DNA of 64,000 bases from Actinoplanes sp. NBC_00393 (GTDB lineage Bacteria > Actinomycetota > Actinomycetes > Mycobacteriales > Micromonosporaceae). A program made the position numbers and the translations under genes. The stretch spans positions 10,530,001-10,594,000 of the forward strand of contig NZ_CP107942.1 in assembly GCF_036053395.1 (NCBI RefSeq), given 5' to 3'. The stretch's first letter is position 1; the number at the start of each line of letters is the position of its first letter. The notes under the pieces were generated by a model. It searched no databases. It saw only the letters and a list, made by a program, of their open reading frames with translations, and was not told the DNA's origin. Positions 30,960 through 46,118 of the stretch are shown here, in pieces.

Positions 30960-31901
30960 GTGAAAACACTCCCGATCCTCGCCGGCGCCCTCGGCATGGC
31001 CTTCGTCGGCGGCAGCGCCGCCGTCTCCGGCCGGCTGGCCGACGCGCCGTACCTCACTGTCCAGAGTCTCCGGTACGCCCTCGCGTGCCTGCTCCTGATC
31101 GGCTGGGCGCGGTGGACCCGGGCGCCGTTGCGCCTGCCGCGCGGCGCCGAATGGCTGTGGCTGCTCGGCGTCACCGGCACCGGCCTGCTGCTCTTCAACG
31201 TCGCCCTGGTCCGGGGCAGCATGCACGCCGAACCCGCGGTGCTCGGCGTCGCGGTGGCGTGCGTGCCGATCCTGCTCGCGGTCGGCGGCCCGCTGCTGGA
31301 AGGCCGCGGCCCGGCGCCCCGGGTGATCGCCGCCGCGGTCGTGGTCACCGCCGGCGCCGCCCTGGTGCAGGGACTCGGCCGCACCGACGGGATCGGTCTG
31401 TTCTGGGCCGCCGTGACGTTCGCCTGCGAGGCCGCGTTCACCCTGCTCGCCCTCCCGGTGCTCGGCCGGCACGGCCCGCTCGGCGTCTCCGTGCACACCA
31501 CCGCGATGGCCACGGTCCTCTTCGGCGTGGCCGGGGTGGCCGTCGAGGGCCCCACCGCGGTCACCCGCCTGCACACCGACGACCTGCTCGCCGGCGCCTA
31601 CCTCGCGGTCCTGCTCACCGCGGTCGCGTTCCTGCTCTGGTACACCTGCGTAGCCCGCCTCGGCGCCGGCCGCGCCGGCCTGCTCACCGGGGTCGCCCCG
31701 ATCGCCGCCGCCCTGACCGGCATGGCCCTGGGCGGCCCGTCCCCGCGCCCGCTCGTCTGGCTGGGCATAGCCACCGTCGCCGCCGGCCTCGCCCTCGGCC
31801 TGACCACCCGCCGCCCCGCCCCAACCCCACCCCAGCTGACCACCACGGCCGCTTCCGCGCCGGGGAAGCGACGCTGGGCGTCAGCCGAAGTGCCGGGCTG
31901 A
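30960..31901 (+). CDS. EamA/DMT-family transporter with a repeat-encoded C-terminus
   Basis: Ten-helix drug/metabolite transporter of 313 aa from GTG 30960. Two EamA halves are visible: residues ~1-130 (ILAGALGMAFVGGSAAVSGRL ... AAAVVVTAGAALVQGL) and ~140-290. Family members export amino acids, nucleosides or drugs. The last ~20 residues (TTAASAPGKRRWASAEVPG) are encoded by the first unit of the downstream 62-bp repeat array, and the TGA at 31899-31901 is formed by the GCTGAC that opens the second unit. Probably controlled by the divergent MocR regulator. Confidence 0.87.
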   Translation: MKTLPILAGALGMAFVGGSAAVSGRLADAPYLTVQSLRYALACLLLIGWARWTRAPLRLPRGAEWLWLLGVTGTGLLLFNVALVRGSMHAEPAVLGVAVACVPILLAVGGPLLEGRGPAPRVIAAAVVVTAGAALVQGLGRTDGIGLFWAAVTFACEAAFTLLALPVLGRHGPLGVSVHTTAMATVLFGVAGVAVEGPTAVTRLHTDDLLAGAYLAVLLTAVAFLLWYTCVARLGAGRAGLLTGVAPIAAALTGMALGGPSPRPLVWLGIATVAAGLALGLTTRRPAPTPPQLTTTAASAPGKRRWASAEVPG

Positions 31902-32567
31902 CCGCCAGGGCTGCTTCCCGGGCCGGGAAGCGACGCTGGGCGTCAGCCGAAGTGCCGGGCTGACCGCCAGGGCTGCTTCCGCGCCCGGGAAGCGACGCTG
32001 GGCGTCAGCCGAAGTGCCGGGCTGACCGCCAGGGCTGCTTCCGCGCCCGGGAAGCGACGCTGGGTGTCAGCTGAGGGTTCGGGCTGACCGCCAGGGCTGC
32101 TTCCCGGGCCGGGAAGCGACGCTGGGCGTCAGCCGAGGTGCTGGGCTGACCGCCAGGGCTGCTTCCCGGGCCGGGAAGCGACGCTGGGCGTCAGCCGAGG
32201 TGCTGGGCTGACCGCCAGGGCTGCTTCCCGGGCCGGGAAGCGACGCTGGGCGTCAGCCGAGGTGCTGGGCTGACCGCCAGGGCTGCTTCCGCGCCCGGGA
32301 AGCGACGCTGGGCGTCAGCCGAGGTGCTGGGCTGACCGCCAGGGCTGCTTCCCGGGCCGGGAAGCGACGCTGGGCGTCAGCCGAGGTGCCGGGCTGACCG
32401 CCACGGCTGCTTCCGCGCCCGGGAAGCGACGCTGGGCGTCAGCCGAAGTGCTGGGCTGATTACCACGGCTGCTTCCCGGGCCGGGAAGCGACGCTGGGCG
32501 TCAGCCGAGGTGCCGGGCTGACCGCCAGGGCTGCTTCCCGGGCCGGGAAGCGACGCTGGGCGTCAGC
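31835..32567. repeat. Array of twelve 51-nt hairpins at an exact 62-bp period
   Basis: Twelve units begin with GCTGAC and end with GTCAGC. They start at 31835, 31897, 31959 and so on every 62 bp to 32517. The core GAAGCGACGCTGGGCGTCAG recurs at 31865, 31927, 31989, 32051, 32113, 32175, 32237, 32299, 32361, 32423, 32485 and 32547. Each unit can fold on itself: outer pairs GCTGAC/GTCAGC and an inner perfect GCTTCCCG-GGC-CGGGAAGC (a GCTTCC-GCGCCC variant in some copies). Units are joined by 11-nt linkers. The array fills the gap between the convergent EamA and serine-hydrolase genes and overlaps the last codons of EamA. Confidence 0.92.
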
Positions 32568-32711
32568 TGGCCGCCCGGCCAACGCGGGGGCTACTGGAGC
32601 GGCCACCTGCATGGGCCCGGCGGGCGCGCTGGGGCCCGGGGCCGTGCGGTGATCGCGCGGCTTGGCGGTACTCCTTCGAAAACCCGTACCGGAAAGGGGC
32701 TTGATCTTGGG
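32568..32711. other. Short intergenic tail after the repeat array
   Basis: 144 bp between the last repeat unit and the stop of the serine hydrolase. No gene or clear terminator is seen. Confidence 0.4.
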
Positions 32712-34046
32712 CTATGCCAGATGTTCGGGGTTGCGGCGGTAGATGAAAGTCGCGATGTCGATGTGGTCCATCGTGCCCTCCGGGGAGCGCACCAGCGACA
32801 TGACCTCGCCCTCGTTGTTGCCGGTGAGGCCGCGCCAGCGGTCCGGTGCCTCGCGGATGAAGCGGGTGCGGTGGTGCGGCCCGGTCATCAGCAGGCCGTC
32901 GCCGTCCGGGGTGATCTCGTACTCGCGGCCCATCCACCACCAGCGGCCGCAGAGTTCGGCGGCCTCACCCTGCGGAGGCGCGGACGGGCGCCAGACCGGG
33001 ACCGTCGACGGCTCGTTGTCGAGGACGGTGGTCAGGGTCTCCAGACTGATCTCTTTGATGCCGGCGCCGGTGAGGCCGTAGGCGTTGGCGAACAGGATGA
33101 CGCCGAGCCGGCTGCGGCGGTGGACGGCCAGGTGCGCGACGTATCCGGGCATCGAGCCGCCGTGGCCGACGTAGACGCGTTCGCCGACCCGGTACAGCTG
33201 CGGGCCGAGGCCGTGCCCGCCGGTCCACGACTCCAGGTCGCTGATCACCACCGGGGCGCACATCTCGTCGACGGTCTCCCGGGCCAGCACCGCGGGGGCG
33301 GGGTCGGCCAGGAACCCGGCCCATTTCGCCATGTCGGTGACGGTGGACCAGAGCTGCCCGGCGGGCGCCATCGCACCGGTGTCCGGGCGGGGTTCCTCGT
33401 GCAGGGCGCCGCCGAGGGCGTGCACCACGTAGCCGCGGGCGTACGGTTCGACCGGGTGGTAGCTGGTGCGTTTCATGCCGAGCGGGTCGAGGACGCGCTT
33501 GCCGACCAGCTCCGCCCAAGACTGGCCGGTGACCTTCTCCAGGACCGCGCCGAGCAGGCCGTAGGCGAGGTTGGAGTAGCGGTACCGGCGGTACGGCGGA
33601 CCGGCGAGCTTCTCGTAGGTCAGGGACGCGAGCAGTTGGTCCACGTCCCCGCCCGGGTTGCGCTCCCACCACAGCCCGTCCGGTTCGCGCTGCAGCCCGG
33701 AGACGTGCCCGAGAAGCTGGCGCAGCGTCACCCCGCCGATCGGGGTGCCCGGCAGATGCCGGTAGAGCAGGTCGTCCAGGGCGAAGAAGCCCTCGTCACG
33801 CAGCTGCATCACCAGCGTCGCGGTGATCGTCTTGGTGATCGAGCCGAGCCGGTACTGGGTCTTCGGATCCGGCCGGGGTTGCTCTCCGGCGCCCGCGAAG
33901 TGCAGCACCGCACGGTCGCGAACCACCGCGCACGCGAGCGAAGGCACCCGGCCGGTGGACTGTGCCCGGGCGACGATCTCATCGATCCGTCGGCCGGTCT
34001 CCGGAAGCAGCGACACGCTGGGGTCCCTCTCCTGTGGCGAACTCAT
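32712..34046 (-). CDS. Class C beta-lactamase-like serine hydrolase
   Basis: 444-aa member of the beta-lactamase/penicillin-binding-protein superfamily. The active-site tetrad S69-x-x-K72 is in YRLGSITKTITATL. The second motif Y157-S158-N159 is in RYSNLAYGLLGAVLEKV, and the third, KTG-like motif appears as HGG in YVGHGGSMPGYVAHL. There is no signal peptide, so it is probably a cytosolic esterase or peptidase rather than a resistance enzyme. A C-terminal lipocalin-like extension follows (from about residue 355). ATG 34046 is followed by MSSPQERDPSV; the frame is open upstream but antisense to the NfeD gene. Confidence 0.88.
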   Translation of the reverse strand: MSSPQERDPSVSLLPETGRRIDEIVARAQSTGRVPSLACAVVRDRAVLHFAGAGEQPRPDPKTQYRLGSITKTITATLVMQLRDEGFFALDDLLYRHLPGTPIGGVTLRQLLGHVSGLQREPDGLWWERNPGGDVDQLLASLTYEKLAGPPYRRYRYSNLAYGLLGAVLEKVTGQSWAELVGKRVLDPLGMKRTSYHPVEPYARGYVVHALGGALHEEPRPDTGAMAPAGQLWSTVTDMAKWAGFLADPAPAVLARETVDEMCAPVVISDLESWTGGHGLGPQLYRVGERVYVGHGGSMPGYVAHLAVHRRSRLGVILFANAYGLTGAGIKEISLETLTTVLDNEPSTVPVWRPSAPPQGEAAELCGRWWWMGREYEITPDGDGLLMTGPHHRTRFIREAPDRWRGLTGNNEGEVMSLVRSPEGTMDHIDIATFIYRRNPEHLA

Positions 34047-34127
34047 GGGTCTAACTGTTCGACGTCGATTCGGGTACGCCGCATTCTGGCGTCGCTGAAC
34101 GTGCGCGGACGTGCCACGATCGTGGAT

Positions 34128-34577
34128 GTGGACGCCGTACTCTGGATCATCCTCGCGATCGCCCTCGTGGTCGCCGAGGCCTTCACCGCGACGATTCTGG
34201 TCGTCTTCTTCGCCGCCGGCGCTGCCGGTGCGGCGATCGCTGCCGGCCTGGGCGCCTCGGTGCTGGTGCAGGTCATCGTGTTCGCGCTGGTCTCCGGCGT
34301 GTCGGTGGCCGCGGTCCGGCCGATCGTCATGCGGCACGCGCGATCCGCGCTGGAGTCGGGCGACACCCCGTTCGGGATCGAGGCGATGGAGGGCGCGCGC
34401 GGCACGGTCGTGGACGAGGTCGGCCCCCACCAGGGCATGATCAAGATCGACGGCGAGCTGTGGCAGGCTCGCGCGTTCGACGGCAACGAGACATTTTCCC
34501 CCGGTGACCACGTAAGGGTCGTCAAGGTCCGTGGCGCCACGGTCCTGGTCTGGCACGACGACCTTCCCGACGTCTGA
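34128..34577 (+). CDS. NfeD-family membrane protein
   Basis: 149-aa short NfeD protein from GTG 34128 (GTG 34122 is possible). Two or three N-terminal helices (VLWIILAIALVVAEAFTATI, then VLVQVIVFALVSGVSVAAV) are followed by the C-terminal OB-fold: EGARGTVVDEVGPHQGMIKIDGELWQARA ... GDHVRVVKVRGATVLV. Short NfeD proteins work with the SPFH/stomatin protein encoded just downstream (31-bp gap), probably in membrane microdomain organisation. Confidence 0.9.
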   Translation: MDAVLWIILAIALVVAEAFTATILVVFFAAGAAGAAIAAGLGASVLVQVIVFALVSGVSVAAVRPIVMRHARSALESGDTPFGIEAMEGARGTVVDEVGPHQGMIKIDGELWQARAFDGNETFSPGDHVRVVKVRGATVLVWHDDLPDV

Positions 34578-34608
34578 GTAGTCCCATCACGAACATCTGA
34601 GAGGCGTC

Positions 34609-35718
34609 ATGGAAGTCATCATCCTGGTCCTCGTCATAGCCATCGCGGTCTTCGCGGTGACCACCCTGGTCCGCTCTGTCCGGATCGTCCCGCAGCAGCG
34701 GATGGACGTCGTCGAGCGGCTGGGGAAGTACAAGCGCACCCTGTCACCGGGGCTGAACCTGCTGGTCCCGTTCGTCGACGCGGTCCGCACCAAGGTCGAC
34801 ATGCGGGAGCAGGTGGTCTCGTTCCCGCCGCAGCCCGTGATCACGTCCGACAACCTGGTCGTCTCGATCGACACGGTGCTCTACTTCAAGGTCGTCGACC
34901 CGGTCCGCGCGACGTACGAGATCTCGCACTTCCTCCAGGCGATCGAGCAGCTCACCGTCACAACACTGCGCAACGTGATCGGCTCCCTGGACCTGGAACG
35001 CGCGCTGACCAGCCGTGAGGAGATCAACAAGCATCTCTCCAGCGTGCTCGACGAGACCACCGGCCGGTGGGGCATCAAGGTCACCCGGGTCGAGATCAAG
35101 GCGATCGAGCCGCCGCCCAGCATCCGCGACTCGATGGAGAAGCAGATGCGCGCCGAGCGGGAGCGCCGGGCCACCATCCTCAACGCCGAGGGTCACAAGC
35201 AGGCGGCGATCCTCACCGCCGAGGGTGAGAAGCAGGCCGCGGTGCTGCGCGCCGACGGTGACCGGCAGTCCCGCATCCTGCAGGCCGAGGGCCAGGCCAA
35301 GGCGATCCGGACCGTGTTCGACGCGATCCACCAGGCCAACCCCTCGCAGAAGGTGCTGGCGTACCAGTACCTTCAGTCGCTGCCGCAGATCGCCAACGGC
35401 TCGGCGAACAAGGTGTGGATCGTGCCGACCGAGCTGACCAAGGCCCTCGAGGGTCTCGGCGGCGCGCTCGGCGGCCTGGCGAACATGGCCGGTGACCTGC
35501 CCTCCTCGCAGGTCGACGCGGGTGCGGTGGAGCGCGAGGCGGCAGCGGCCGCGGAGGCTGCGGCGGCCGAGGCACAGAAGGTGGATGCCGAGGTACGCGC
35601 AGCCGAAGCCGAAGTCAGCGGCAACGACAAAGCCCTCCCGGCGTCCGACGTCATCCCGCCCGCCGCAGCGCTGGGCAGCGCCGACTATCACGAGACGAGC
35701 CAGGTCGAGAAAGCCTGA
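34609..35718 (+). CDS. SPFH/Band 7 (stomatin-like, QmcA type) protein
   Basis: 369-aa membrane-associated scaffold protein. A single N-terminal helix (VIILVLVIAIAVFAVTTLV) anchors it. The Band 7 domain starts RIVPQQRMDVVERLGKYKRTL and contains MREQVVSFPPQPVITSDNLVV and TLRNVIGSLDLERALTSREEIN. A long coiled-coil stretch (about 185-230, with AEGHKQAAILTAEGEKQAAVL repeats) promotes oligomer rings. The C-terminal tail is Ala/Glu-rich. It forms an operon with NfeD and is closed by a strong terminator 9 bp after its stop. Confidence 0.94.
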   Translation: MEVIILVLVIAIAVFAVTTLVRSVRIVPQQRMDVVERLGKYKRTLSPGLNLLVPFVDAVRTKVDMREQVVSFPPQPVITSDNLVVSIDTVLYFKVVDPVRATYEISHFLQAIEQLTVTTLRNVIGSLDLERALTSREEINKHLSSVLDETTGRWGIKVTRVEIKAIEPPPSIRDSMEKQMRAERERRATILNAEGHKQAAILTAEGEKQAAVLRADGDRQSRILQAEGQAKAIRTVFDAIHQANPSQKVLAYQYLQSLPQIANGSANKVWIVPTELTKALEGLGGALGGLANMAGDLPSSQVDAGAVEREAAAAAEAAAAEAQKVDAEVRAAEAEVSGNDKALPASDVIPPAAALGSADYHETSQVEKA

Positions 35719-35727
35719 CAGTCGTCT

Positions 35728-35766
35728 GGCAGGGCCGGTCCTTCACCGACCGGCCCTGCCCTTTTT
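35728..35766 (+). terminator. Intrinsic terminator after the NfeD-SPFH operon
   Basis: A perfect 13-bp stem (GGCAGGGCCGGTC at 35728-35740 and GACCGGCCCTGCC at 35748-35760) with a 7-nt loop (CTTCACC) is followed directly by CTTTTTG. This is the clearest Rho-independent terminator in the window. Confidence 0.95.
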
Positions 35767-35873
35767 GTGGTATCCGACACATGGGCCGGAGAAGTTTGGC
35801 ATGCTTCCGTGCAGGATTCCGACCGGTGCCCCCCGGCCGCTCGGCTTGTTGCCCCTGTGATCGAGGCGGAGCC

Positions 35874-36539
35874 ATGAGCATCAGCCAGCGTCAGACCGCA
35901 AGTGGCCGTCCCCTGCGGATCGCTCCGGCCTGGGTCGGCGCCGCAACGCCGGCCGACGGCGCGGACCATCTTCCGGTACGCGACGCGGTCTGGATCTGGT
36001 CGGTCCGCCGGTACGCGCGCCTCGCTCTCTGGGCCCTACCGGTCGCCGCCGTCCTGTACGGCTGGCTCACCCTCGGCGTCGACACCCCACCCGGTCCGCT
36101 GGCGGTCGGCCTGCTCGCCGGCTGGCTGGCCACCATCTCGCTGATCGCCCTGGCCGGCCTGCTCGCCGGTTCGCGGACCCGCCGCTGCGCCCTGGCCGGT
36201 TTACTGGTCACCCTGGCCGGCGCCACCATGCTGCTGCCGCTCGCCGCACTGCCCGAGGACGCGGTGCTGGAGAGCGCCCCGCTGGTCGCCGGGCACGAGC
36301 CGGGGCTGCTGACCACGGCCGGGACGATCGCCGGCGCCGGGATGCTGCTGCTGGGCTGGGCGGTGTTCCGCTCCAAGCTGGTCAACCCGGCCGACGGGGT
36401 GCTGCTGATGCTCGCCGCGGTGGCGATGGGCGCCGGCACCTATCTGACCCAGCCGGTGCCGACGGTCGGGGCGCTGCTGCTGCTCGCCGCCGGGATGGGG
36501 CTGGCCTGGACGGGTGGCCGGCTGGTGCCCCGCGCATAA
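35874..36539 (+). CDS. Polytopic membrane protein, unknown function
   Basis: 221-aa protein from ATG 35874 with GAGGCGGA upstream. After a polar N-terminus (~45 residues) it has six hydrophobic helices (YARLALWALPVAAVLYGWL, GLLAGWLATISLIALAGLLA and others). No transport or enzyme motif is recognised. It lies 8 bp before the RNA methyltransferase gene on the same strand and 107 bp after the SPFH terminator. Confidence 0.72.
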   Translation: MSISQRQTASGRPLRIAPAWVGAATPADGADHLPVRDAVWIWSVRRYARLALWALPVAAVLYGWLTLGVDTPPGPLAVGLLAGWLATISLIALAGLLAGSRTRRCALAGLLVTLAGATMLLPLAALPEDAVLESAPLVAGHEPGLLTTAGTIAGAGMLLLGWAVFRSKLVNPADGVLLMLAAVAMGAGTYLTQPVPTVGALLLLAAGMGLAWTGGRLVPRA

Positions 36540-36547
36540 TCGGGCCG

Positions 36548-37357
36548 GTGCCCGACGTACAGCTGATCACCGACCCCGACGACGAGCGGCTCGGTGACTA
36601 TCGCGCCCTCACCGACCTTGAGTTGCGTACCAGGTGGGAGCCGCCCAACGGGCTCTTCATCGCCGAGGGGGAACTGGTGCTGCGGCGCGCGCTGCGGGCC
36701 GGTTACCGTCCCCGGTCCTACCTGATCGACGCCAAACGGGTCGCCCAGATCGAGGATCTCGAGGACGCGCCGATCTACGCGGCCACCCCGGACGTGCTGG
36801 AACGGGCCACCGGTTTCCACGTGCACCGCGGGGTGCTCGGCTCGTTCCACCGGTCGCCGCTGCTCGGCGCGGACGAGGTGCTCGCCGGCGCGCGCCGGGT
36901 CGCGATCCTGGAGGACGTCAACAACCACACCAACATCGGGGCGGTGTTCCGGGGCGCGGCCGCGCTCGGCATCGACGCCGTCCTGCTCTCGCCGACGTGC
37001 GCGGACCCGCTCTACCGGCGCAGCGTCCGGGTCAGCATGGGCGAGGTGTTCGCGGTGCCGTACGCCCGGCTCGAACCCTGGCCGGACGCCCTGCACCAGG
37101 TCCGGGAGGCGGGTTTCACCGTGCTCGCGATGACCCCGGCCCCGGACGCGGTCGCGATGCAGCGGCTGACCCCTGAGCAGCGGAAACGGGCGGCCCTGCT
37201 GCTCGGCGCCGAAGGGCCCGGCCTGTCGCGGCACGCCCTCGCCGCGAGCGACGTGCCGGTCAAGATCCCGATGCGGCGCAACGTCGACTCGCTCAACGTG
37301 GCGGCCGCGGCGGCGGTGGCGTTCTGGGAGCTCGGCCGCGACGACCTGGAAATCTGA
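36548..37357 (+). CDS. SpoU/TrmH-family RNA 2'-O-methyltransferase
   Basis: 269-aa S-adenosylmethionine-dependent methyltransferase of the SPOUT class, acting on rRNA or tRNA ribose. The three SpoU motifs are present: VNNHTNIGAVFRGAAALGID (motif 1), LLLGAEGPGLS (motif 2) and KIPMRRNVDSLNVAAAAAVAFWE (motif 3, the knot). The N-terminal substrate-binding domain reads GLFIAEGELVLRRALRAGYRPRSYL. GTG 36548 start. The target nucleotide cannot be told from sequence. Confidence 0.92.
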   Translation: MPDVQLITDPDDERLGDYRALTDLELRTRWEPPNGLFIAEGELVLRRALRAGYRPRSYLIDAKRVAQIEDLEDAPIYAATPDVLERATGFHVHRGVLGSFHRSPLLGADEVLAGARRVAILEDVNNHTNIGAVFRGAAALGIDAVLLSPTCADPLYRRSVRVSMGEVFAVPYARLEPWPDALHQVREAGFTVLAMTPAPDAVAMQRLTPEQRKRAALLLGAEGPGLSRHALAASDVPVKIPMRRNVDSLNVAAAAAVAFWELGRDDLEI

Positions 37358-37358
37358 G

Positions 37359-37865: not shown

Positions 37866-37952
37866 CGGCGCAGCATAGTGTCCTTCTTCAAGCATCAGGG
37901 GCGTCCGGTGCGGGAAGATGGACCTTGAGGCTCGTACCGTTCTTCTCCGGGG

Positions 37953-39623
37953 GTGTCAGTGTCGTCTGGTTCGGGACCGGGGTCGGACCCGCATCTGCTC
38001 GCCCTGCTGCGGGCCATCCGGCTGCGGCAGAACGCGCCGGACGCGGCAGCCGCCGGCGAGGCGGACACCGCGGCCGCGCTGTCCGAGCTGCCCGCCCCCG
38101 ACGAACCGGAGCCGGCCACCGACCCGGAGCCCGCGGCACCGCCGGCTTCCGGGCCCGGGATGCCCTACGGCAGGTCGAGCGGCACACCGGGCCGCCGGAT
38201 CCTGCCCAAGCCGGCCGCCGGGCCACCCTCCGCCGAACGCGGCACCTCAGAGTTGCTGTGGCGCGGTGATCCCGGGGCCACGCTGGGTCGCTCCGGGTTG
38301 GCAGCCCGGAAGACTCGGCGGGGTGCTTGGGGCGTACCGGTCAGTGGGGTGAACCCGGTCGGAGCCACCGGCGCCGTGCCCGAAATCCCACCGGTGGCGG
38401 GCCCCCGCCCCATCGGGGCGGCCGGCACTGAATTCCCGGTCATCCAGCCGCAGGTCCGTCCCACCATGCCCGGCCCGCTGCGCCAGGACGGCATGGACCC
38501 GGCCGACGACGCCGCGCTGCGCGACACCCAGCGCCTGCTCAGCACCAGCCTCACCTTCGCCGGCGGCACCGAGGAGGTGGCCGACCGGCTCTGGCACGCG
38601 CTGTACCGGGCCCAGCCCGACCTGCTCTCGGTGCTGCCCGGCTCCCCGCAGACCCAGCGTGACCAGATCGCCCGGGCGCTCATCTGGCTGACCCACACCC
38701 TGGACTCACCGCCCACGCTGGTGGCCGGCTGCACCGCGCTGGGCGCCGCCCTGGCCGAGTCCGGGGTGCAGTGGAAACAGCTCGAACTGGTCGGCGCCGC
38801 CCTCGCCGAGGCGCTGCGGGCCGGGATGGCGCCCGGCGCCTGGCGACAGGACTTCGACCACGCCTGGCGCTGGACGTGGCAACACAGCTACGAATGGATC
38901 GTGCACGGCGGGACACTCACCGGATATCAGCCGACCACCTGGCGCGCCGAGGTGGTCAGTCACGACCTGCGCCGCCCGGACCTCGCCGTGCTGCGGCTCC
39001 GGCCGTATCTGCCGATGCCGTTCCGGCCCGGCCAGTACGCGCGCATCGAGGTGCCCGACGTGCCGGGCGTCTGGCGGCCGTATTCACTGGCCCTCGCCCC
39101 GCACCGCGACGACCTGGTCGAGCTGCACGTGCGGGCCAAGACCGAGACGGGGGTCAGTGGCACGCTGGTCTATGACACCCGCGTCGGTGATCAGGTGCGG
39201 ATCGCTCGGGCCGAGGGGGAGATGGGGCTGCCGGTCGATCCGGGTCGTGGCGTTTTGATGATCGCGGGGGACACCGGAGTGGCGCCGATGAAGGCGATGC
39301 TCGCTGAGCTGGCGGCTACGGCTGATCCGCGGCCGGCTGTGCTGTTCTGGGGGGTGCGCGACATCAACGAACTCTACGACATGCCTGATTTATCGGAAAT
39401 CGCCCGGTCGGCGCCGCGGGCGACTGTGGTGCCGGTGATCGCCGAAGGCGATCCGGGGCCGTACCCGTCCGGCCTGGTCACGGACGCGGTCGCCGCCTAC
39501 GGCGAATGGTCCGGCAGCGAGGTCTACCTGGCCGGGCCGCCGCTGATGCTCGCCGCGACGAGCGCGGCCTTGCAGCAGCTGGGCGTGGCGCCCGAGCGCA
39601 TCCATCACGACGCTCCGGAATAG
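37953..39623 (+). CDS. Globin-like/ferredoxin reductase fusion lacking the proximal histidine
   Basis: 556-aa protein with three parts. The N-terminal ~175 residues are disordered and rich in Pro/Ala/Gly. A globin-like domain follows (~185-325, DTQRLLSTSLTFAGGTEEVADRLWHALYRAQPDLLS). A flavin/NAD reductase unit completes it (FAD motif R375-P-Y377-S378 in VWRPYSLA, NAD motif G439-D-T-G442-V-A-P445, late AGPPLML). The layout copies flavohaemoglobin, but the position of the haem-binding His before GV in the F helix is Leu267 (ALAESGV). The Tyr of helix B also appears to be Trp. Haem binding is therefore doubtful; it may be a sensor or an electron-transfer partner. Confidence 0.85.
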   Translation: MSVSSGSGPGSDPHLLALLRAIRLRQNAPDAAAAGEADTAAALSELPAPDEPEPATDPEPAAPPASGPGMPYGRSSGTPGRRILPKPAAGPPSAERGTSELLWRGDPGATLGRSGLAARKTRRGAWGVPVSGVNPVGATGAVPEIPPVAGPRPIGAAGTEFPVIQPQVRPTMPGPLRQDGMDPADDAALRDTQRLLSTSLTFAGGTEEVADRLWHALYRAQPDLLSVLPGSPQTQRDQIARALIWLTHTLDSPPTLVAGCTALGAALAESGVQWKQLELVGAALAEALRAGMAPGAWRQDFDHAWRWTWQHSYEWIVHGGTLTGYQPTTWRAEVVSHDLRRPDLAVLRLRPYLPMPFRPGQYARIEVPDVPGVWRPYSLALAPHRDDLVELHVRAKTETGVSGTLVYDTRVGDQVRIARAEGEMGLPVDPGRGVLMIAGDTGVAPMKAMLAELAATADPRPAVLFWGVRDINELYDMPDLSEIARSAPRATVVPVIAEGDPGPYPSGLVTDAVAAYGEWSGSEVYLAGPPLMLAATSAALQQLGVAPERIHHDAPE

Positions 39624-40061
39624 GGGGTACGGGTTTCCGCCGTCGCCCGAATCGATGCCCGTCCCGCCGCTTCCAGGCGGCCAGGCACAACTCAAGGCAG
39701 CCAGCGCCCGCGCCGGGCTTACCTATCTCCCGGCCTACCTCGCTCCACCCTTCCCGCTCGAACCCGAGCTTCGTGCGCTTGTCCCATTCGTCCATCACCG
39801 GAACCACCACCGCGGCCCCGCCGACCAGGTCAGCGGCCAAACCGCCGAACAAGTCGTCCTGCCCGACCGCTTCGCTCTTCTTCACCGCCGACGCCGCATC
39901 CACCGCGCCGCGCGAACCGAGCCGTCGCCCACGCGCCCACCTGGCTGAGCTGCCCCGCTCACTTCCCGCCTGTTCCTGCGCCTCGTTCCTACCGCGCCGC
40001 GCCTCACTCCATCCCCGAGGCCGAGCGGGCCAGGCTCGCCAGCTGGGCTGCAGGCCCGCCG
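39624..40061. other. Intergenic region before repeat array 2
   Basis: Between the globin-FNR gene and the second hairpin array. Apart from the dnaE remnant at 39745-39910 I see no gene. The stretch 40028-40060 looks like a degenerate partial repeat unit. Confidence 0.45.
39745..39910 (-). pseudogene. Fragment of DNA polymerase III alpha subunit (dnaE) remnant
   Basis: On the minus strand the translation AVDAASAVKKSEAVGQDDLFGG followed by VMDEWDKRTKLGFERE matches the DnaE segment just before the C-terminal OB region (in DnaE: ...K.EA.GQ.DLFGG ... EW....KL..ERE.LG.Y.S.HPL). Similarity stops abruptly after ERE (near 39751), where the LGLYVSGHPL continuation is missing, and fades upstream of 39910. 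No intact dnaE lies nearby. It is best read as a decayed, non-functional piece between a convergent gene pair. Confidence 0.6.
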
Positions 40062-40485
40062 GCTGGCGCTCGGTGCTGTCTCCCGCTCCTCGAAGCAGCC
40101 GTGAGTGTCAGCCGAGGCCGCCCGGCTGGCGCTCAGTGTTGTTTCCGGCGTTGCGAGGCAGCTGTGAGTGTCAGCTGAGCCGCCCGGCTGGCGCTCAGTG
40201 TTGTTTCCGGCGGCGGGAGGCAGCCGTGAGTGTCAGCCGGGCCGCCCGGCTGGCGCTGAGTGTTGTTTTCGGCGGCGGGAGGCAGCTGTGAGTGTCAGCT
40301 GAGCCGCCCGGCTGGCGCTCAGTGTTGTTTCCGGCTCCTCGAGGTAGCCGTGAGTGTCAGCCGAGCCGCCCGGCTGGCGTTCAGGGCTGTTTCCGCGGGT
40401 GCGAGACGACCCTCAGCGCCAGCTGGGCTGTCCGGCTGGCGCTCAGGGTTGCTTCGTCGGTCCCGGGACAGCCGTGAGTGACAGC
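40062..40485. repeat. Array of seven 51-nt hairpins at a 62-bp period (second family variant)
   Basis: Units start with GCTGGC at 40062, 40125, 40187, 40249, 40311, 40373 and 40435 and end with (G)TCAGC or ACAGC, each 51 nt with 11-12 nt linkers. The left arm (GCTGGCGCTCAGTGTTGTTT) pairs imperfectly with the right arm (CAGCYGTGAGTGTCAGC). The consensus differs from arrays 1 and 3 but unit length, spacing and end pairing are the same. It lies between the convergent globin-FNR and cupin genes, ending 14 bp before the cupin stop. Confidence 0.9.
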
Positions 40486-40498
40486 CGTGCGGAAAGGG

Positions 40499-40861
40499 TC
40501 AGCGGACGGCGTAGCCGGGGACGGAAGGCCAGCGGACGGTCAGGACGACTGACTCCTCGGCGGCGTACCAGGAATGATCGACGCCGCGCTGCCAGACCAC
40601 GTAGTCGCCCTGCTTGTCGAGGATGACGGTGCGGCCGGGGAACTCCATGTGGAAGCAGCCACTGATCAGCACCAGCAGGGCCGTGCGGGCCTCACCGCGT
40701 ACCCATCGGGCCCGGCGATCACCCTGCGCATGACGGCCCCACTTGATCTCGACGTCGGTGCTGTGCCGGGGGTCGCCTTCCGGCTTGAAGTGGCCCAGCA
40801 GCCAGCCGTGGTCGGCGAGCGCGTCCGGGTCGGCGTTCCCGACGTAGATCCCATCTGTCAC
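40499..40861 (-). CDS. Cupin-like protein
   Basis: 120-aa protein from GTG 40861 (MTDGIYVGNADPDALADHGWLLGHF). The strand pattern and motifs HSTDVEIKWGRHAQG, TALLVLISGCFHMEF and GDYVVWQRGVDHSWYAAEESVVLTVRWPS fit a single cupin barrel, with His residues placed to bind a metal. Close relatives are common in actinobacteria and often carry the mistaken label "signal peptidase I". Function unknown. It lies 10 bp downstream of the serine hydrolase and is probably cotranscribed with it. Confidence 0.78.
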   Translation of the reverse strand: MTDGIYVGNADPDALADHGWLLGHFKPEGDPRHSTDVEIKWGRHAQGDRRARWVRGEARTALLVLISGCFHMEFPGRTVILDKQGDYVVWQRGVDHSWYAAEESVVLTVRWPSVPGYAVR

Positions 40862-40871
40862 GCCGGGAACG

Positions 40872-41963
40872 TTACCTACCGGCGCTGCGGACGACCGCTT
40901 CGATCAGGTCGGCGTTCTCCGGCGCGGCGCCTCCGGGGAAGGCGAAGCGGCGGCGCGTGTACGCGTACGCGATCCCGGTCCGAGGGTCGGCGAATGCGTG
41001 CGACCCGGCGGCACCGCTATGACCGAAAGCGATCGGGCTGAGCCCACGATAGTGGGTCTGGGTCTCGAAGCCGAGACCGAAGTGCCCGGGCTCGCCGGTG
41101 ACCACGTCGGTGCCGGGCGACGACACCGTGGCGAAGGTGGTCAGCGTGTCCCGGTCGAGCAGCGGTTCGGCGCCGTCGACGCCCCAGACCGCAGCCGCGT
41201 ACATCTTTGCCAGCCCTCGTGCGCTGGCCACTCCGGCCGCGGAGGACTGCCCGAGCGCGCGCACCGACGGGATGTTGATCCACTCCGCCAAGTCGGTGGG
41301 TGGGTCGGCGTTGAGGTTGAAGGCGACGCCGATGAGGCTGTCCGGCGGGAGTTCGGCCTTCTGCGGTGCGGGCAGGACCGGCCGGTAGCGGGACTCGTCG
41401 GGTGAGCCGAGGAAGACCTCGACAGCGAAAGGCGTCCGAACCAGATCAGTAAAGAGCTGCTGGATGGTACGGCCGGTGGCGCGCTCGGCGACCGCGCCGA
41501 GGAGGGCGCCGATTACGAAGGCGTGATACCCGTACGTCGAGCCGGGCCGCCAGAACGGCTGCTGGCGGAGCAGGCGGTCGGCGAGGATCCGGTCGTCGGC
41601 CAGCTCGGCGGAGGTGAAGCCGCCGTCGACGCCGATCAGCCCGCTGCGATGGGCAAGCAGGTCACGCAGGGTGAGGTCGCTGGTGAACTCCGGCCAGTAC
41701 GCCACGACGGGCCGGTCCAGGTGGAGGACGCGATCGCGGACCAGGCGGGCGATCACCAGGTGGGTGGCACCCTTGGTCGCCGAGAAAACGCCGGTCAGCG
41801 CGTCGCCGTCACCGGCCGCGCTGGACCACAGGTCGGCGACGATCCGGTCGCGCTGGTAGGCGACGAGCTGCGCCGCCGGGTCGCCGGGCTGGTCGGCGAG
41901 CATCTTGGCGAACGCGTCGCGGACTTCGGTGTACGAGCTGTCAACAGTGCCGTGAACCGCCAT
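40872..41963 (-). CDS. Beta-lactamase-family serine hydrolase (EstB-like)
   Basis: 363-aa serine hydrolase with S61-x-x-K64 in GVFSATKGATHLVIARL and the motif YGYHAFVIGALLGAVAERATG in place of YxN. A His-Ser pair (AFGHSGAAGSHAFADP) stands in the third-motif position. No signal peptide. Family members hydrolyse esters or lactams. ATG 41963 is chosen over an upstream frame extension because the gap to the divergent marR gene holds a clear operator. It is probably under MarR control. Confidence 0.87.
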   Translation of the reverse strand: MAVHGTVDSSYTEVRDAFAKMLADQPGDPAAQLVAYQRDRIVADLWSSAAGDGDALTGVFSATKGATHLVIARLVRDRVLHLDRPVVAYWPEFTSDLTLRDLLAHRSGLIGVDGGFTSAELADDRILADRLLRQQPFWRPGSTYGYHAFVIGALLGAVAERATGRTIQQLFTDLVRTPFAVEVFLGSPDESRYRPVLPAPQKAELPPDSLIGVAFNLNADPPTDLAEWINIPSVRALGQSSAAGVASARGLAKMYAAAVWGVDGAEPLLDRDTLTTFATVSSPGTDVVTGEPGHFGLGFETQTHYRGLSPIAFGHSGAAGSHAFADPRTGIAYAYTRRRFAFPGGAAPENADLIEAVVRSAGR

Positions 41964-41975
41964 GCCGGTGACGCT

Positions 41976-42013
41976 ATAGTCACCGATGTTGATAGTCAAC
42001 AAGGGTGACTATC
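41976..42013. promoter_or_regulatory. Probable MarR operator
   Basis: The divergent gap contains the inverted repeat GATAGTC-AACAAGGGT-GACTATC (41991-42013, perfect 7-bp arms) and an extra half-site ATAGTCA at 41976-41982. A single site between the regulator and its divergent neighbour is the usual MarR arrangement and would repress both. Confidence 0.7.
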
Positions 42014-42035
42014 ACTAAGTGTTACGATCCCGTGA

Positions 42036-42485
42036 ATGCGGCGCGGTGAACGGAAGCAGACCGATCCTGACCTCGGCGTCCTGGCCGGCCGGTTGCTCTT
42101 CGCGGTCCAGGACGAGCTGTTCGGGCGGCTCGCGCGCGAGGGCCACCCGGATCTGCGGCCGCAGCACGGCGCGGTGCTCGCCTACCTCGACGCCGAGGGC
42201 AGCCGGGCAACCGATTTGTCCCGGTTCAGCGGCCTGCACAAGCAGGTGGTGGGCAAGCTGATCGACGAACTGGAGACCTTGGGGTACGTCGAACGCCGCC
42301 CCGATCCCACCGACCGCCGCGCCAAGCTGATCGTCCCGACCGAGCGCGGCCTCGACCAGATGGCGCGCTCCGACGCGATCATGGCGGACCTCGAGCAGAG
42401 CGCCGCGACCGCCGTCGGCGCCGCGGCTTACGCCGAGTTCAAAAACCTGCTGCGTACGGTGACCGCGCACCAACGCTCCCGCTGA
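42036..42485 (+). CDS. MarR-family transcriptional regulator
   Basis: 149-aa winged-helix repressor. The reader helix region is GSRATDLSRFSGLHKQVVGKLIDELETLGYVERRPDPTDRRAKLIVPTERG, with the typical wing D-x-R-DRR. It is divergent from the EstB-like hydrolase with the operator in between. The ligand is unknown. Confidence 0.92.
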   Translation: MRRGERKQTDPDLGVLAGRLLFAVQDELFGRLAREGHPDLRPQHGAVLAYLDAEGSRATDLSRFSGLHKQVVGKLIDELETLGYVERRPDPTDRRAKLIVPTERGLDQMARSDAIMADLEQSAATAVGAAAYAEFKNLLRTVTAHQRSR

Positions 42486-42647
42486 ACGCCCACGGCGGGG
42501 GTGGGGCGGGGGAGCGGACTGGGGCGGCCGGGTGGGTGGCTGAGCGGGCCGGGCCAGCAGAGTGGGGGGAACGGGCCGGGCCGGCCGGACGGGATGCCGG
42601 GCCGGGCCGGCTGGGCGGGATGCTGAACGGCCCGGCTGGGTGAGCGG
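42486..42647. other. Low-complexity G-rich spacer
   Basis: Between convergent marR and murL. It is dominated by GGGCCGG/GGGCGG runs on the plus strand with no coding frame. No clear terminator with a T-run is present. Confidence 0.45.
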
Positions 42648-43964
42648 TCAGATGGTGGGGCTCTGAGCCACGGCCTCGTCAAGGATCTTGCGGTAGGCCG
42701 GGGGGATGTGGTTGGCGCCGCCCGGGGTGAAGACGTTGCTGTGGGAGGCGTCGGCCCAGGCGGAGTCCGGGACGGCTGCGCGCAGCGCCACCAGCACCGG
42801 GGCGTCGTCGGTCAGCATGGCGAGCGCGACCAGGCACTCCTCGGCCTCGCCGACGCACTCGAACGGCTTGTGCGCGTCCACGCCCAGCAGCTCCAGGAAG
42901 CCGGGGATCTGCGCCTCGTCCGCGAACAGGTCATGGCCGAAGATGTGGGCCAGCCGCTCCCGCGACATGTGCGGCGCCATCGCCAGGAAGACGAAGCGGC
43001 ACTTCGGACAGTCACCACACCAGCGCGCTGTCGGGTCGTGCAGCTTGAAGGCCTTGTTACAGCTGGTGACGACATCATCGTACGCAGTGTGACCGGCAAA
43101 GAGCTGAGCGATGTGCAGCTCGGACAGCGGCCGCAGCAGCGAGAAGTATGGGTCGGCCAGCCCGGCGTACGCCGTCACCGCCTCCCGCAGCAGCCCTTCG
43201 GCCGCCACCCCCTTGGACCACTGGTGGTTCACCTCGTGCCCGTTCCACACCAGGTTGGGGTCGGAGGCGGACCGCTCGTTCGACATCACCACCGGGCCGA
43301 GACCGTGCCACACCGCGGTGGCGATCGCGATCAGCGAGTTGATCGCGGTGACCGGGATGTGCCCGTTCAGCGCACCGGCCTTGTTCAGCTCGAACAGCCG
43401 CGGGTCGAGCTTGCGGCGGGCGGCCAGCGCGGGCAGACCGGAGGCGGCGTTCACGTTCTCGATCACCGGGTTCGGGTTGACCGAGAACGGGACCGGGTCG
43501 AGCCCGGCGGCGCGCAGGATCTCACACGTGACGATCGAGTCCTTGCCGCCGCCGACTGCGGAGAGCGGGCGGCCGGCTGTCTCGACGGGGGCTGCCGCGG
43601 GGGCGACGCCGGGGGTCTCGACGGTCAGGTCCAGCACGTGGGCGAGCTGGTTGCGGTAGGCGTACTCGGCCAGCCCTTCGGTGTAGACCGCGGTGAAGAA
43701 CGAGGCCACCTCGGCCGGCACCGGCTTCGGCGCGACCACCCGCGGCGGGGCGCCGACCTTGTAGTAGCTGACCCCGGCGACGACATGCAGCAGATCCAGC
43801 ACCCGGTGGAAGGCGGCCGGCACGTCCGGCCGCGAGGGCACCGGGAACGTGATCGTCTCGGTGAAGTGCAGCGGCTCCGGCCCGTCCAGCAGGTAGTCGA
43901 ACGTCGCCACCCCGGTCGACGGGTCGAACGCGTACGAGGGGAAGTGCATGACGTCGAACTGCAC
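42648..43964 (-). CDS. murL: UDP-MurNAc-L-Ala-L-Glu epimerase MurL
   Basis: 438-aa enzyme that converts the terminal L-glutamate of UDP-MurNAc-L-Ala-L-Glu to D-glutamate using ATP, giving peptidoglycan its D-Glu without a glutamate racemase. The PP-loop-like AVGGGKDSIVTCEIL (residues ~137-151) and the cysteine cluster WCGDCPKCRFVFLAM (C317, C320, C323) are characteristic. The N-terminus FDYLLDGPEPLHFTETITFP is also typical. The start is GTG 43964 because AGGAG is correctly spaced; ATG 43949 is an internal Met. It is divergent to a murD homologue (74-bp gap), the partner expected for MurL. Confidence 0.9.
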   Translation of the reverse strand: MQFDVMHFPSYAFDPSTGVATFDYLLDGPEPLHFTETITFPVPSRPDVPAAFHRVLDLLHVVAGVSYYKVGAPPRVVAPKPVPAEVASFFTAVYTEGLAEYAYRNQLAHVLDLTVETPGVAPAAAPVETAGRPLSAVGGGKDSIVTCEILRAAGLDPVPFSVNPNPVIENVNAASGLPALAARRKLDPRLFELNKAGALNGHIPVTAINSLIAIATAVWHGLGPVVMSNERSASDPNLVWNGHEVNHQWSKGVAAEGLLREAVTAYAGLADPYFSLLRPLSELHIAQLFAGHTAYDDVVTSCNKAFKLHDPTARWCGDCPKCRFVFLAMAPHMSRERLAHIFGHDLFADEAQIPGFLELLGVDAHKPFECVGEAEECLVALAMLTDDAPVLVALRAAVPDSAWADASHSNVFTPGGANHIPPAYRKILDEAVAQSPTI

Positions 43965-44038
43965 CCGGGAACTCCTGTCTTTCGGCCGACGGGCAATATT
44001 AGTTCGGCCGTGCTGGATTCCAACCAAGGAGAGACGAC

Positions 44039-45391
44039 GTGCGCCTGGCAGATCTGCGCGGCCGCTCGGTGGCGGTCTGGGGCACCGGCCGGGAGGGCCG
44101 GGCCGCGGTGACCGCGATCGCCCGTCATGAGCCGTCCCGGTTGATCGCCGTGGACGACAGCGCCAACTACCTCTCCGTCGACTGGTCCGGCGAGCTGGCG
44201 CAGCTGGCCCCGCTGGCCGGTGGCGAGCACGCCCAGGCCGCGCTGCTGACCGCCGACGTAGTGGTCCGGTCGCCGGGGGTGCCGCAGACCCACCCGTACC
44301 TCAAGGAGCTGCGCGCCCGGGGGATCACGGTGACCGGCGGCAGCGCGCTGTGGATGGCCGAGCACGCCGCCCGGACCGTCGGGGTGACCGGCAGCAAGGG
44401 CAAGAGCACCACGTCCAGCCTGATCAGCCACCTGCTGGCGGCAGTCGGGCAGCCCAACGCGTACGGCGGGAACATCGGCATTCCGCTGCTCGACCTGCCC
44501 GAGGCCGAGCTGTACGTGCTGGAGCTCTCCAGCTACCAGTGCGCGGACCTGACCGACTCGCCGCGGGTCGCGGTGGTCACGTCGCTCTTCCCCGAGCACC
44601 TGGACGCGCACGGCGGGGAGCGCGAGTACTACCGGGACAAACTCAACATTCTTCAGTACGGGCCTGAGCTGATCGTCGTCAACGGGGTGGACGAGCGGCT
44701 GCGCGACGAGATCCGCGGGGTGATCGACCGCAGCGGCTTCCCGCCGGTGCCGGCAGCGGCTGACGACTCCCGGTTCCGGGTCGAGGACGGAACGGTCTTC
44801 TGCAGCGACGACGAGCTGTTCCCGCGGGAGGCGCTGGCGCTGAAGGGCCGGCACAACGAGCGGAACCTGTGCGTGGCACTCGCGGTCCTGGACGGCATGG
44901 GTGTCGACGTGGTCGGGCAGCGGGCGGTCATCGAGGAGGCGGTCCGGTCGTTCCGGGGGCTGCCGCACCGGCTGGCCGAGATCGAGGACCCGTCCGGGCT
45001 GACCTTCGTCGACGACACGCTGTCGACCAGTCCCTACTCGGCCATGCACGCGATCGAAGCGTACGAGGGACGGCCACTCACCGTGCTCGTCGGCGGAACC
45101 GACCGCGGTCTTGATTACACGCCGTTACGAGACTTCCTCGCCTCCCGGGAACTCACCGTGATCGGCCTGCCGGACAGCGGCCCGCGCATCCTCGCCGAGC
45201 TGGCCGGGCTGCCGAAGGTGCGCACGGTCGCGTCGGAGGACCTGTTCGACGCCGTCCGGCTCTCCCGCGAGCTGACCCCGGCCGGCGGCGTGGTGCTGCT
45301 GTCGCCCGCCGCGCCGAGCTACGGCCGCTTCCGCAACTTCGAACACCGCTCCGAGGCCTTCGCCCAGGCCGTCCGCGACACCGCCAAGTAG
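44039..45391 (+). CDS. murD2: UDP-MurNAc-L-Ala:L-glutamate ligase MurD2
   Basis: 450-aa Mur ligase. The N-terminal Rossmann-like domain (RGRSVAVWGTGREGRAAV) binds the UDP precursor. The ATP loop is GVTGSKGKST at residues 115-124. The central motif LELSSYQCADL and the Lys/His region LKGRHNERNLCVAL follow, and the C-terminal substrate domain includes FVDDTLSTSPYSAMHAI. In ordinary MurD the substrate is D-Glu. The association with MurL, and the family known from Xanthomonas, suggest it adds L-Glu. GTG 44039 with AAGGAGAG 5 nt upstream. Substrate assignment is by context. Confidence 0.88.
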   Translation: MRLADLRGRSVAVWGTGREGRAAVTAIARHEPSRLIAVDDSANYLSVDWSGELAQLAPLAGGEHAQAALLTADVVVRSPGVPQTHPYLKELRARGITVTGGSALWMAEHAARTVGVTGSKGKSTTSSLISHLLAAVGQPNAYGGNIGIPLLDLPEAELYVLELSSYQCADLTDSPRVAVVTSLFPEHLDAHGGEREYYRDKLNILQYGPELIVVNGVDERLRDEIRGVIDRSGFPPVPAAADDSRFRVEDGTVFCSDDELFPREALALKGRHNERNLCVALAVLDGMGVDVVGQRAVIEEAVRSFRGLPHRLAEIEDPSGLTFVDDTLSTSPYSAMHAIEAYEGRPLTVLVGGTDRGLDYTPLRDFLASRELTVIGLPDSGPRILAELAGLPKVRTVASEDLFDAVRLSRELTPAGGVVLLSPAAPSYGRFRNFEHRSEAFAQAVRDTAK

Positions 45392-45435
45392 CTCTGGCCG
45401 CCTCCGCCCTCACTGCGCGCCAGCCGGGTGGCCGG

Positions 45436-45674
45436 GCTGACGGTGAGTGCTGCCTCGGGCGTCGCGAAGCGACGCTGGGCGTCAGCCGGGTGGCCGGGCT
45501 GACGGTGAGTGCTGCCTCGGGCGTCGCGAAGCGACGCTGGGCGTCAGCCGGGTGGGCGGGGCTGACGGTGAGTGCTGCTTCGGGCGTCGCGAAGCGACGC
45601 TGGGCGTCAGCCGGGTGGGCGGGGCTGACGGCTGGTGCTGTTTCCGGGTGCCGGAAACAGCACTCAGCGTCAGC
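45436..45674. repeat. Array of four 51-nt hairpins (third copy of the 62-bp repeat family)
   Basis: Units begin GCTGAC at 45436, 45498, 45561 and 45624 and end GTCAGC exactly 51 nt later each time, with 11-12 nt linkers. The first three share GAAGCGACGCTGGGCGTCAG with array 1. The fourth has a different inner stem, GCTGGTGCTGTTTCCGG paired with CCGGAAACAGCACTCAGC, which is nearly perfect. A partial unit end precedes the array near 45410-45430. It starts 45 bp after the murD2 stop and has no gene inside. Confidence 0.92.
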
Positions 45675-46118
45675 TGAGGAACCACCGCATCAGCCCGGCG
45701 GCCCCCGTAGGGCCCGGTGTTGTGCCTGGCTGGGCCGGATGTGGCGGGCAGGTGTAGCTCCGGCGGCCGCGGCGCGGACCCGTACCGAGAATTTTTTTGA
45801 TCTTGTTTCGTGTGTAACGGCGCGATGTCGCCGCGTCACCGGGAGTGGCCGAACGGCCTACCTTGCGCCCGCCGATCGGTTGGGCGACTGCTGACGAACG
45901 GCCGAGGGCAAATCGGGCTTAACAGGGGCACGTGATGGCGGTCACGTCGTAAGGGTTATTTCCGGATCGATGGCTGTCATCCGGCCTCCGCGAAACATCT
46001 GTTCATTGCCGCAGGCCAGGTCACGTTTTGAAAACTTCCTTCACAGTCTTGACAGCGAGGGGCGGTTAGTAAGAACTTTTACCGCGACAGTAAACAGTCC
46101 TTCCTGAAAGGGTGTCCG
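45675..46118. promoter_or_regulatory. Upstream region of the RpiR-sugar transporter cluster
   Basis: 444 bp without a gene. It contains an AT-rich stretch (GAATTTTTTTGATCTTG, near 45788-45804), the inverted repeat ACGTGA-TGGCGG-TCACGT at 45930-45947 and a possible promoter with TTGACA at 46049-46054 and TAAGAA at 46070-46075 (15-bp spacer, a little short). The repeat could be an operator of the RpiR regulator. This is inferred from symmetry and position only. Confidence 0.45.

Follow-up and report, generated by a model that had tools for sequence, protein, structure and literature searches.

Tandem hairpin arrays at gene 3′ ends in Actinoplanes are polarised by replication rather than by transcription

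Introduction

Repetitive extragenic palindromes of bacteria (the REP, BIME and REPIN families of enterobacteria and pseudomonads) are short, number hundreds per genome, form species-specific families and lie partly in tandem, and REP sequences have a conserved tetranucleotide foot, GTAG. Here we describe a family of hairpins of about 53 nt that shares the first four of these features and that is represented by three tandem arrays in one 64,000-nt stretch of Actinoplanes sp. NBC_00393 (the window; contig NZ_CP107942.1, positions 10,530,001 to 10,594,000 of the forward strand). We find that these arrays are oriented with respect to replication, not to the genes that they follow. The preliminary description of the window had called them REP/BIME-like, which holds for copy number, extragenic placement at gene 3′ ends and species-specific families, and does not extend to a REP-associated tyrosine transposase (RAYT), to which no link was found. 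In Pseudomonas fluorescens SBW25, too, tandem REP arrays take opposite orientations in the two halves of the chromosome: five near 2 Mb are forward and six near 4 Mb are reverse, in the cited portion of that study (PMC3116915). The Actinoplanes units differ from REPs in that each is one 53-nt hairpin, repeated head-to-tail and not as inverted pairs at a 62–64-bp step, with no RAYT found here and no fixed tetranucleotide foot in the consensus; the array pattern is found here only in Actinoplanes, with a polarity present in 103/107 arrays and absent from single copies. Because the defining RAYT is missing, the family is not filed as REP/RAYT, though it works like one.

Two further systems are close in other respects. 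Insertion sequences of the IS200/IS605 type act on hairpins of the lagging-strand template and are oriented with the fork, as the cited section states (PMC6006769), whereas the Actinoplanes units come without a transposase gene, consist of one repeated hairpin rather than two different end hairpins, and are polarised only when in tandem arrays. Template switching at quasi-palindromes in Escherichia coli is likewise replication-linked and strand-biased and makes hairpin arms complementary (PMC7202029, PMC8794818); the events known from the cited parts of these papers are point or short corrections, whereas a duplication of the whole hairpin is proposed here. The genome paper of Actinoplanes sp. 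SE50/110 blames many stable structures of high G+C content for sequencing gaps, and the part cited makes no mention of a repeat family, of arrays or of polarity among them (PMC3364876); they are possibly relatives of the hairpins described here. No description of such an element was found in titles and abstracts of the open PubMed Central literature.

Results

A genome-wide family of head-to-tail hairpins

The genome that holds the window (G000) is a single contig of 11,433,213 bp, in which unit DNA used as query gives 151 and 75 matches and a covariance-model search at least 150 (150 of 150 scored candidates). An array pattern defined as GGCTGNC...GNCAGCC with the next unit 8–11 nt on, which misses arrays with other ends, matches the whole genome 246 times in the forward sense and never as a reversed control, so that the window arrays are far beyond chance. 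We then sampled 1.87 Mb, made up of 94 stretches around known hits, six control stretches of 20 kb (120 kb, two of them abutting the window) and the window, with loci picked by similarity to the window units on either strand. Hairpins are present in every targeted stretch and in none of the six controls, and the 504 non-overlapping hairpins fall into 128 loci of 1–15 units, 107 of which are tandem arrays of at least two units; the spread to other loci is confirmed. Units run head-to-tail, and 62 bp (182 cases) and 63 bp (143 cases) dominate the centre-to-centre spacing. The tests on 53-nt units omit 27/504 that were centred as 54-mers, and no count draws on a sequence-free peak detection in named loci, whose output was noisy.

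The arrays lie at gene 3′ ends, as defined by gene calls from our own codon-score caller rather than an annotation. After two of the 128 loci that lack a gene on one side are dropped, 78 of the 126 placed loci are between convergent genes, 41 between tandem and 5 between divergent genes, and 2, tallied apart, are inside called genes, which leaves 124/126 outside; for comparison, all intergenic regions in the sample that are at least 100 bp long, including those that bear arrays, comprise 125 convergent, 308 tandem and 235 divergent cases. Among the 119 arrays with a 3′-end neighbour, the median distance to that end is 33 bp; 42 are no more than 10 bp away, 71 no more than 50 bp, and 18 overlap the stop codon. 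An oriented consensus of 103 units is G-rich after the hairpin and shows neither a U-tract nor an invariant flanking tetranucleotide. Linkers are more alike within arrays (identity 0.69) than between them (0.35) and resemble both flanks, the right (0.40 vs 0.31) and the left (0.37 vs 0.30; 77 arrays); linkers of 9–10 nt that are alike within an array, with no unique spacers, distinguish these arrays from CRISPR.

Polarity follows the replichore, not the gene

A function in RNA should tolerate G·U pairs in the mRNA sense and avoid their mirror image, A·C. We tallied G·T and A·C stem mismatches on the plus strand of every locus and expressed them on the leading-sense strand, which is the lagging-strand template and has the same sequence as the nascent leading strand. 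Polarity was examined in this way in two species, and the arrays within a genome cannot be treated as independent. In G000, position rather than gene direction accounts for the asymmetry: the leading-sense strand carries 1457 G·T and 519 A·C mismatches, and 100 of the 117 non-tied loci agree with their replichore (Fisher p = 1.2e-15; ties omitted from the sign tests, 11 of 128 loci in G000 and 2 of 40 in G200). The observed statistic is 938, and the highest value among 20,000 permutations is 492. A free two-break scan puts the switches at 2.5 and 8.5 Mb, with dnaA at 8,533,618 and the point half a genome away at 2.8 Mb.

The polarity belongs to tandem arrays and not to single copies, the G·T:A·C ratio being 29:34 in singles, 268:97 in arrays of 2–3 units, 430:162 in those of 4–5 and 730:226 in those of six or more. 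Base composition tells the same story, as G+T is the richer on the leading-sense strand in 103/107 arrays; the corresponding figures for other intergenic tandem repeats are 54/115 at periods of 12–30 bp, 27/44 (27:17) at 31–57 bp, 15/18 at 58–68 bp and 4:4 above 68 bp. Plain intergenic segments show a mild excess (168/283, or 168 vs 115), and the chromosome therefore has little general strand skew. The TG/CA composition product is 3.78 in linkers and 2.78 in loops, vs 1.20 just outside the arrays and 1.05–1.18 in other intergenic DNA. In calculations of DNA stability, the leading-sense hairpin is the stronger in 83/107 arrays (by a mean of about 1.3 kcal/mol) and in only 9/21 singles.

A second species, G200, behaves alike, with an inner stem of clearly different sequence (CCCTATCC/GGATAGGG) and a period of mostly 63–64 bp. 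In 40 hit clusters, fetched from among the matches listed of 235, the leading-sense strand has 520 G·T and 209 A·C mismatches, 31/38 non-tied arrays agree with their replichore (Fisher p = 1.5e-4; permutation p = 5e-5), and the free scan gives 4.8 and 9.6 Mb, where dnaA lies at 4.71 Mb and the terminus is predicted at 9.66 Mb. The arrays are unlikely to be an assembly artefact, since the genome is a single contig and a second species, also assembled as one contig, shows the same pattern.

Gene direction can be separated from replication where arrays lie between genes of one orientation. The 25 arrays between leading-strand genes have 255 G·T and 99 A·C mismatches on the leading-sense strand, and the 16 between lagging-strand genes have 157 and 48 on that strand, which is an excess of A·C in the mRNA. 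For control we took 306 ordinary hairpins that follow genes, and these have 140 G·T and 86 A·C in the gene direction (p = 4e-4). The control hairpins thus carry a modest RNA signal and the arrays run clearly opposite to it; the arrays are polarised by replication rather than transcription.

Stem covariation and what it implies

The preliminary description had taken stems that change on both arms as evidence that the folded form is selected. Between species the covariation is indeed strong: with one hairpin from each of 23 genomes, 76% of pairs are Watson–Crick vs 52.8% after shuffling (maximum 57.8% in 1000 shuffles), and both-side changes number 101 vs 31 (maximum 45). These shuffles ignore kinship, and genomes in the set may overlap; about 8 of the 42 cross-species hairpins were retained although out of register, so that the score is lower than it would otherwise be. 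Within G000, pairing (67.4%, 121 hairpins, one per locus) is barely above that of shuffled sets (65.3%, maximum 66.9% in 500), and most of the pairing there is therefore shared consensus. The covariation is no proof of selection, because template switching at quasi-palindromes during replication can also yield compensatory changes without it, as reported in the cited part of PMC8794818.

Distribution among genomes and site turnover

Searched in 220 genomes of the Micromonosporaceae, 46 of Actinoplanes and 174 of other genera, the array pattern is clear only in Actinoplanes, with forward counts of 246 in G000, 86 in G200, 40 in G182, 17 in G233, 12 in G229, 10 in G240 and 2–6 in G014, G115, G193 and G015; the 174 genomes of other genera give 0–2 each, the same as the control. 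The window model also matches hairpins in G010, G016, G019, G007 and G021. The 17 loci viewed from those species are often single hairpins with inner stems of their own and 16–23 of 23 positions paired, and the versions of other Actinoplanes are 53-nt hairpins with GGCTG...CAGCC ends, single or arrayed. A weak window-model match in G038 (E = 1.8e-4, among 16 genomes from outside the genus) lies in DNA without such an array and was taken as chance.

Sites turn over rapidly. For proC and argC we fetched 30 of 60 loci each. Downstream of proC, a strict screen of these 30 loci finds the G000 array, one perfect hairpin of its own type in G014 and a chance-looking palindrome in G017, and no hairpin in the closest relative, G015 (94% protein identity). 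Downstream of argC, 8/30 loci score, comprising the G000 array, hairpins that look family-like by eye in G227 and G216, and others that look like chance; G015 again has no hairpin there. The MurD-like gene upstream of the third window array encodes a protein whose closest named match is from Actinoplanes aureus (95%), with other Actinoplanes next. By eye, 13 loci 3′ of this gene include own versions of the hairpin in A. aureus, A. siamensis, A. lutulentus, A. palleronii and strain DH11, and a search of 80 MurD-like loci with G000 profiles matches A. palleronii alone. The hairpins that follow this gene differ in sequence between several Actinoplanes species (L201, L208, L210, L211 and L216). 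Judged from these sequences, the site downstream of the MurD-like gene may have been occupied repeatedly, as the varied hairpins suggest.

The window arrays and their surroundings

The three arrays of 12, 7 and 4 units are real and were located again, the third at 45436–45674 (Table 1). Their unit is a 53-nt hairpin (GGCTGAC or GGCTGGC ... GTCAGCC) plus a linker of 9–10 nt, 62–63 bp in total. The preliminary description was right about a regular period and drew the unit at 51 nt with 11–12-nt linkers (11, 12 and 12 in array 3 on that definition), for which 53 and 9–10 nt are the better choice; the common ends that it gave, GCTGAC...GTCAGC, fit arrays 1 and 3 and not the start of array 2, and its exact 62-bp step is kept throughout array 1 and gives way to 63 bp, later 62 bp, in array 2. 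Tandem Repeats Finder scores the arrays at 1205, 504 and 391. That all three follow a plus-strand gene is true in a loose sense: the open reading frame before array 1 ends at 31901, inside unit 2, and array 2 is 437 bp from its upstream gene and much nearer to the 3′ end of the minus-strand gene. Arrays 1 and 2 lie between convergent genes and array 3 between two plus-strand genes.

The plus strand is leading-sense in the window, and the tested unit of every array folds better on it as DNA, with z = −4.3, −3.2 and −4.2 for one unit each of arrays 1, 2 and 3 and −10.4 for the near-perfect unit 4 of array 3. No Rfam family reaches its gathering score in the window, and array 1 has no match in plasmid and phage collections. 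Pfam was run on 20 proteins, and a mobility gene may lie hidden among the listed genes between two arrays.

Table 1. Hairpin arrays and adjacent genes of the window, with further period-63 arrays of G000 (locus coordinates)
Feature	Position	Strand	Remarks
Array 1	31835..32567	+	12 hairpin units, 62-bp period; stem mismatches GT 14 : AC 13
Array 2	40059..40487	+	7 hairpin units, 62-bp period, ends GGCTGGC...GTCAGCC; GT 36 : AC 3 on plus
Array 3	45434..45677	+	4 hairpin units; GT 11 : AC 6
EamA-like transporter gene	30960..31901	+	array 1 begins within its 3′ end
Beta-lactamase-family (PF00144) gene	32712..33908	-	convergent neighbour of array 1
FAD/NAD-binding oxidoreductase gene	38349..39623	+	upstream of array 2
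120-aa gene, no Pfam match	40499..40861	-	3′ end 12 bp from array 2
MurD-like Mur ligase gene	44069..45391	+	43 bp upstream of array 3
RpiR/SIS regulator gene	46119..47096	+	downstream of array 3
Other period-63 hairpin array	L192:10531-11070		
Other period-63 hairpin array	L131:8310-8581		
Other period-63 hairpin array	L165:2154-2339		
Other period-63 hairpin array	L175:7602-7780		
Other period-63 hairpin array	L123:1785-1971		
Other period-63 hairpin array	L149:16178-16521		
Other period-63 hairpin array	L191:15762-16011		
Other period-63 hairpin array	L196:18531-18654		

Other repeats accompany the family. Among the other intergenic tandem repeats of G000, 18/190 have a period of 58–68 bp, and 11 hairpin arrays, of differing sequences and some with GCTGGC...GCCAGC ends, again have a period of exactly 63. 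A second short motif (CAGCCCGGCGG / CCGCCGGGCTG and variants) occurs in array flanks, e.g., at window positions 45691–45701 and in L317 after the proC array, and its density within 200 bp of arrays is 5.3 times that in the rest of the sampled DNA (12 vs 50 hits). The window also holds a 47-bp tandem repeat at 62487–62622 (2.9 copies, 91% match).

Discussion

We read the family, with a probability of about 0.52, as genus-specific REP-like palindromes of about 53 nt that are tandemly expanded at gene 3′ ends and that live and evolve as hairpins in single-stranded DNA at the replication fork, with one strand evidently exposing the folded form. If it folds readily on the leading-sense strand, a hairpin would slip or switch template in copying and be duplicated together with a few flanking bases, giving the 62–64-bp unit, and repeated rounds would build the arrays and make linkers alike within each. 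Expansion would favour hairpins that fold in the leading sense, and the simplest route would be for the nascent leading strand to slip or switch template; in E. coli the leading strand is reported to undergo such events more often (PMC8794818), and a strand bias of quasi-palindrome mutation is also reported (PMC7202029), in the portions cited. Linkers that resemble both flanks are as expected if the duplicated block overruns both hairpin feet by a few bases, and a polar duplication that copies the fork-distal flank only was dropped on the same ground. Arrays would persist where gene ends converge, since that is where they are least harmful.

Several observations weigh against this reading. No expansion event was observed, and slippage is our inference; the folded strand may be either the lagging-strand template or the nascent leading strand, and a polar function such as protein binding or priming would orient arrays too. 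A minority of non-tied loci point the wrong way, 17/117 in G000 and 7/38 in G200, and the longest window array is nearly balanced. The control hairpins lean to the leading-sense strand as well (131:95, p = 0.02), and their gene-direction ratio is only 52:43 when lagging-strand genes are taken alone. Recent changes, assessed in arrays of at least four units (65 in a first test, 61 when split by region), do not visibly rebuild the asymmetry: new single changes at Watson–Crick pairs give 83 G·T and 63 A·C (p = 0.12), T>C in stems (53.5 per 1000) exceeds A>G (35.0) and so erodes it, and C>T and G>A are equal there (25.0 and 25.1 per 1000). Most of the stem asymmetry therefore predates the latest changes, and 111/124 single changes at G·T pairs restore a Watson–Crick pair. 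Loops and linkers have more C>T (51/1092) than G>A (70/2387), which exposed single strands would be expected to show, and strand-biased mutation may contribute.

The alternative that survives best, although we regard it as unlikely, is passive damage, in which inert palindromes are extruded on an exposed strand and their unpaired C and A turn into T and G, so that the asymmetry would need neither oriented expansion nor a function. We keep mutation as a rival because unpaired positions show a keto-making excess when split by region, in the C>T rate just given and in A>G (19/174) vs T>C (34/449); the equality of C>T and G>A in stems and the position of linkers as the most asymmetric part of the arrays agree with it. 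It does not account for the absence of asymmetry from singles and from 12–30-bp repeats, nor for the near symmetry of the sequence just outside arrays, and the 2.8:1 ratio of G·T to A·C in stems is unmatched by current stem changes.

Somewhat less probable is spread by a REP/RAYT or IS200/IS605-type HUH transposase that acts on lagging-strand-template hairpins and leaves fork-oriented copies. The strand preference of IS200/IS605 and the opposed REP arrays of SBW25 make this plausible, the polarity of the arrays has the expected sign, and Y1 transposase matches are commoner in hairpin-positive genomes (5/9 vs 2/15 others in the first 24 genomes), though several hairpin-positive genomes lack Y1. 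However, PF01797 (Y1/RAYT), sought at E = 1e-3, has no match in the array-rich G200, G182 and G233 or in the hairpin-bearing G016, G007 and G015, and 12 Y1 loci scanned with the window hairpin model, which may miss the versions of other species, give one weak match (E = 0.1). Single copies are unpolarised, though insertion itself should orient them. Two partial Y1 matches of the IS200/IS605 type do occur in G000 (L094 and L099, at 3.49 and 3.44 Mb), one with an internal stop and with no hairpins nearby. Searched in 24 and then in 12 genomes, the link to RAYT or Y1 is unsupported, with no locus linked; a more distant enzyme may be behind the spread.

We consider it rather improbable, and a shade more so than a transposase, that the arrays are a new replication-fork element of tandem hairpins at a fixed 62–64-bp step, which would have to fold on the lagging-strand template to work, for instance as priming or fork-handling sites between convergent genes that are copied and kept alike by a hairpin-processing enzyme. 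If this were true, the same 63-bp step in the G000 hairpin arrays of differing sequence would be its signature.

Transcript termination and RNA protection, which the preliminary description had listed among the possible roles, are very unlikely; on this view the hairpins would end transcripts or shield mRNA 3′ ends, and would do so for both genes of a convergent pair. The hairpins are stable, they are strongly enriched between convergent genes, and like intrinsic terminators they lie close to gene 3′ ends; they have neither the U-tract of such terminators nor their tolerance of G·U in the mRNA sense. The asymmetry tracks the replichore, is opposite to the mRNA sense between lagging-strand genes, and lacks the lean to that sense of ordinary hairpins. 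On the gene-direction test with control hairpins we reject RNA function as the main force, and an RNA role may exist alongside shaping at the DNA level. Just as hard to sustain are polar chromosome signals or phased protein-binding sites (KOPS-like, Chi-like, nucleoid or gyrase-type), for although 62–63 bp is about six helical turns and the other hairpin arrays of G000 keep a period of 63, G200 steps by 63–64 bp instead, known hit clusters are few near the terminus, no polar word occurs in all arrays (the top 12 biased 8-mers are in 20–76 of 107 on the leading-sense strand and 0–56 on the other), and the sequences that we take to be KOPS (FtsK-orienting polar sequences) and Chi occur 7 vs 3 and 7 vs 1 times on the leading-sense vs the other strand, so that identity with either was rejected for want of a single polar oligomer. 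Binding of a nucleoid protein, a further role named in the preliminary description, may still be compatible with a step of about six turns.

It has long been asked by what route palindromic repeats multiply in bacteria, and whether their folding matters at the level of DNA or of RNA. The Actinoplanes arrays offer more than 100 natural replicates in one genome, on both replichores and with a clean strand signal, which lets forces at the DNA level be told apart from those at the RNA level. They carry a warning that covarying genomic hairpins need not be functional RNA, and the expansion process to which they point, coupled to replication, could be reproduced in a reporter strain.

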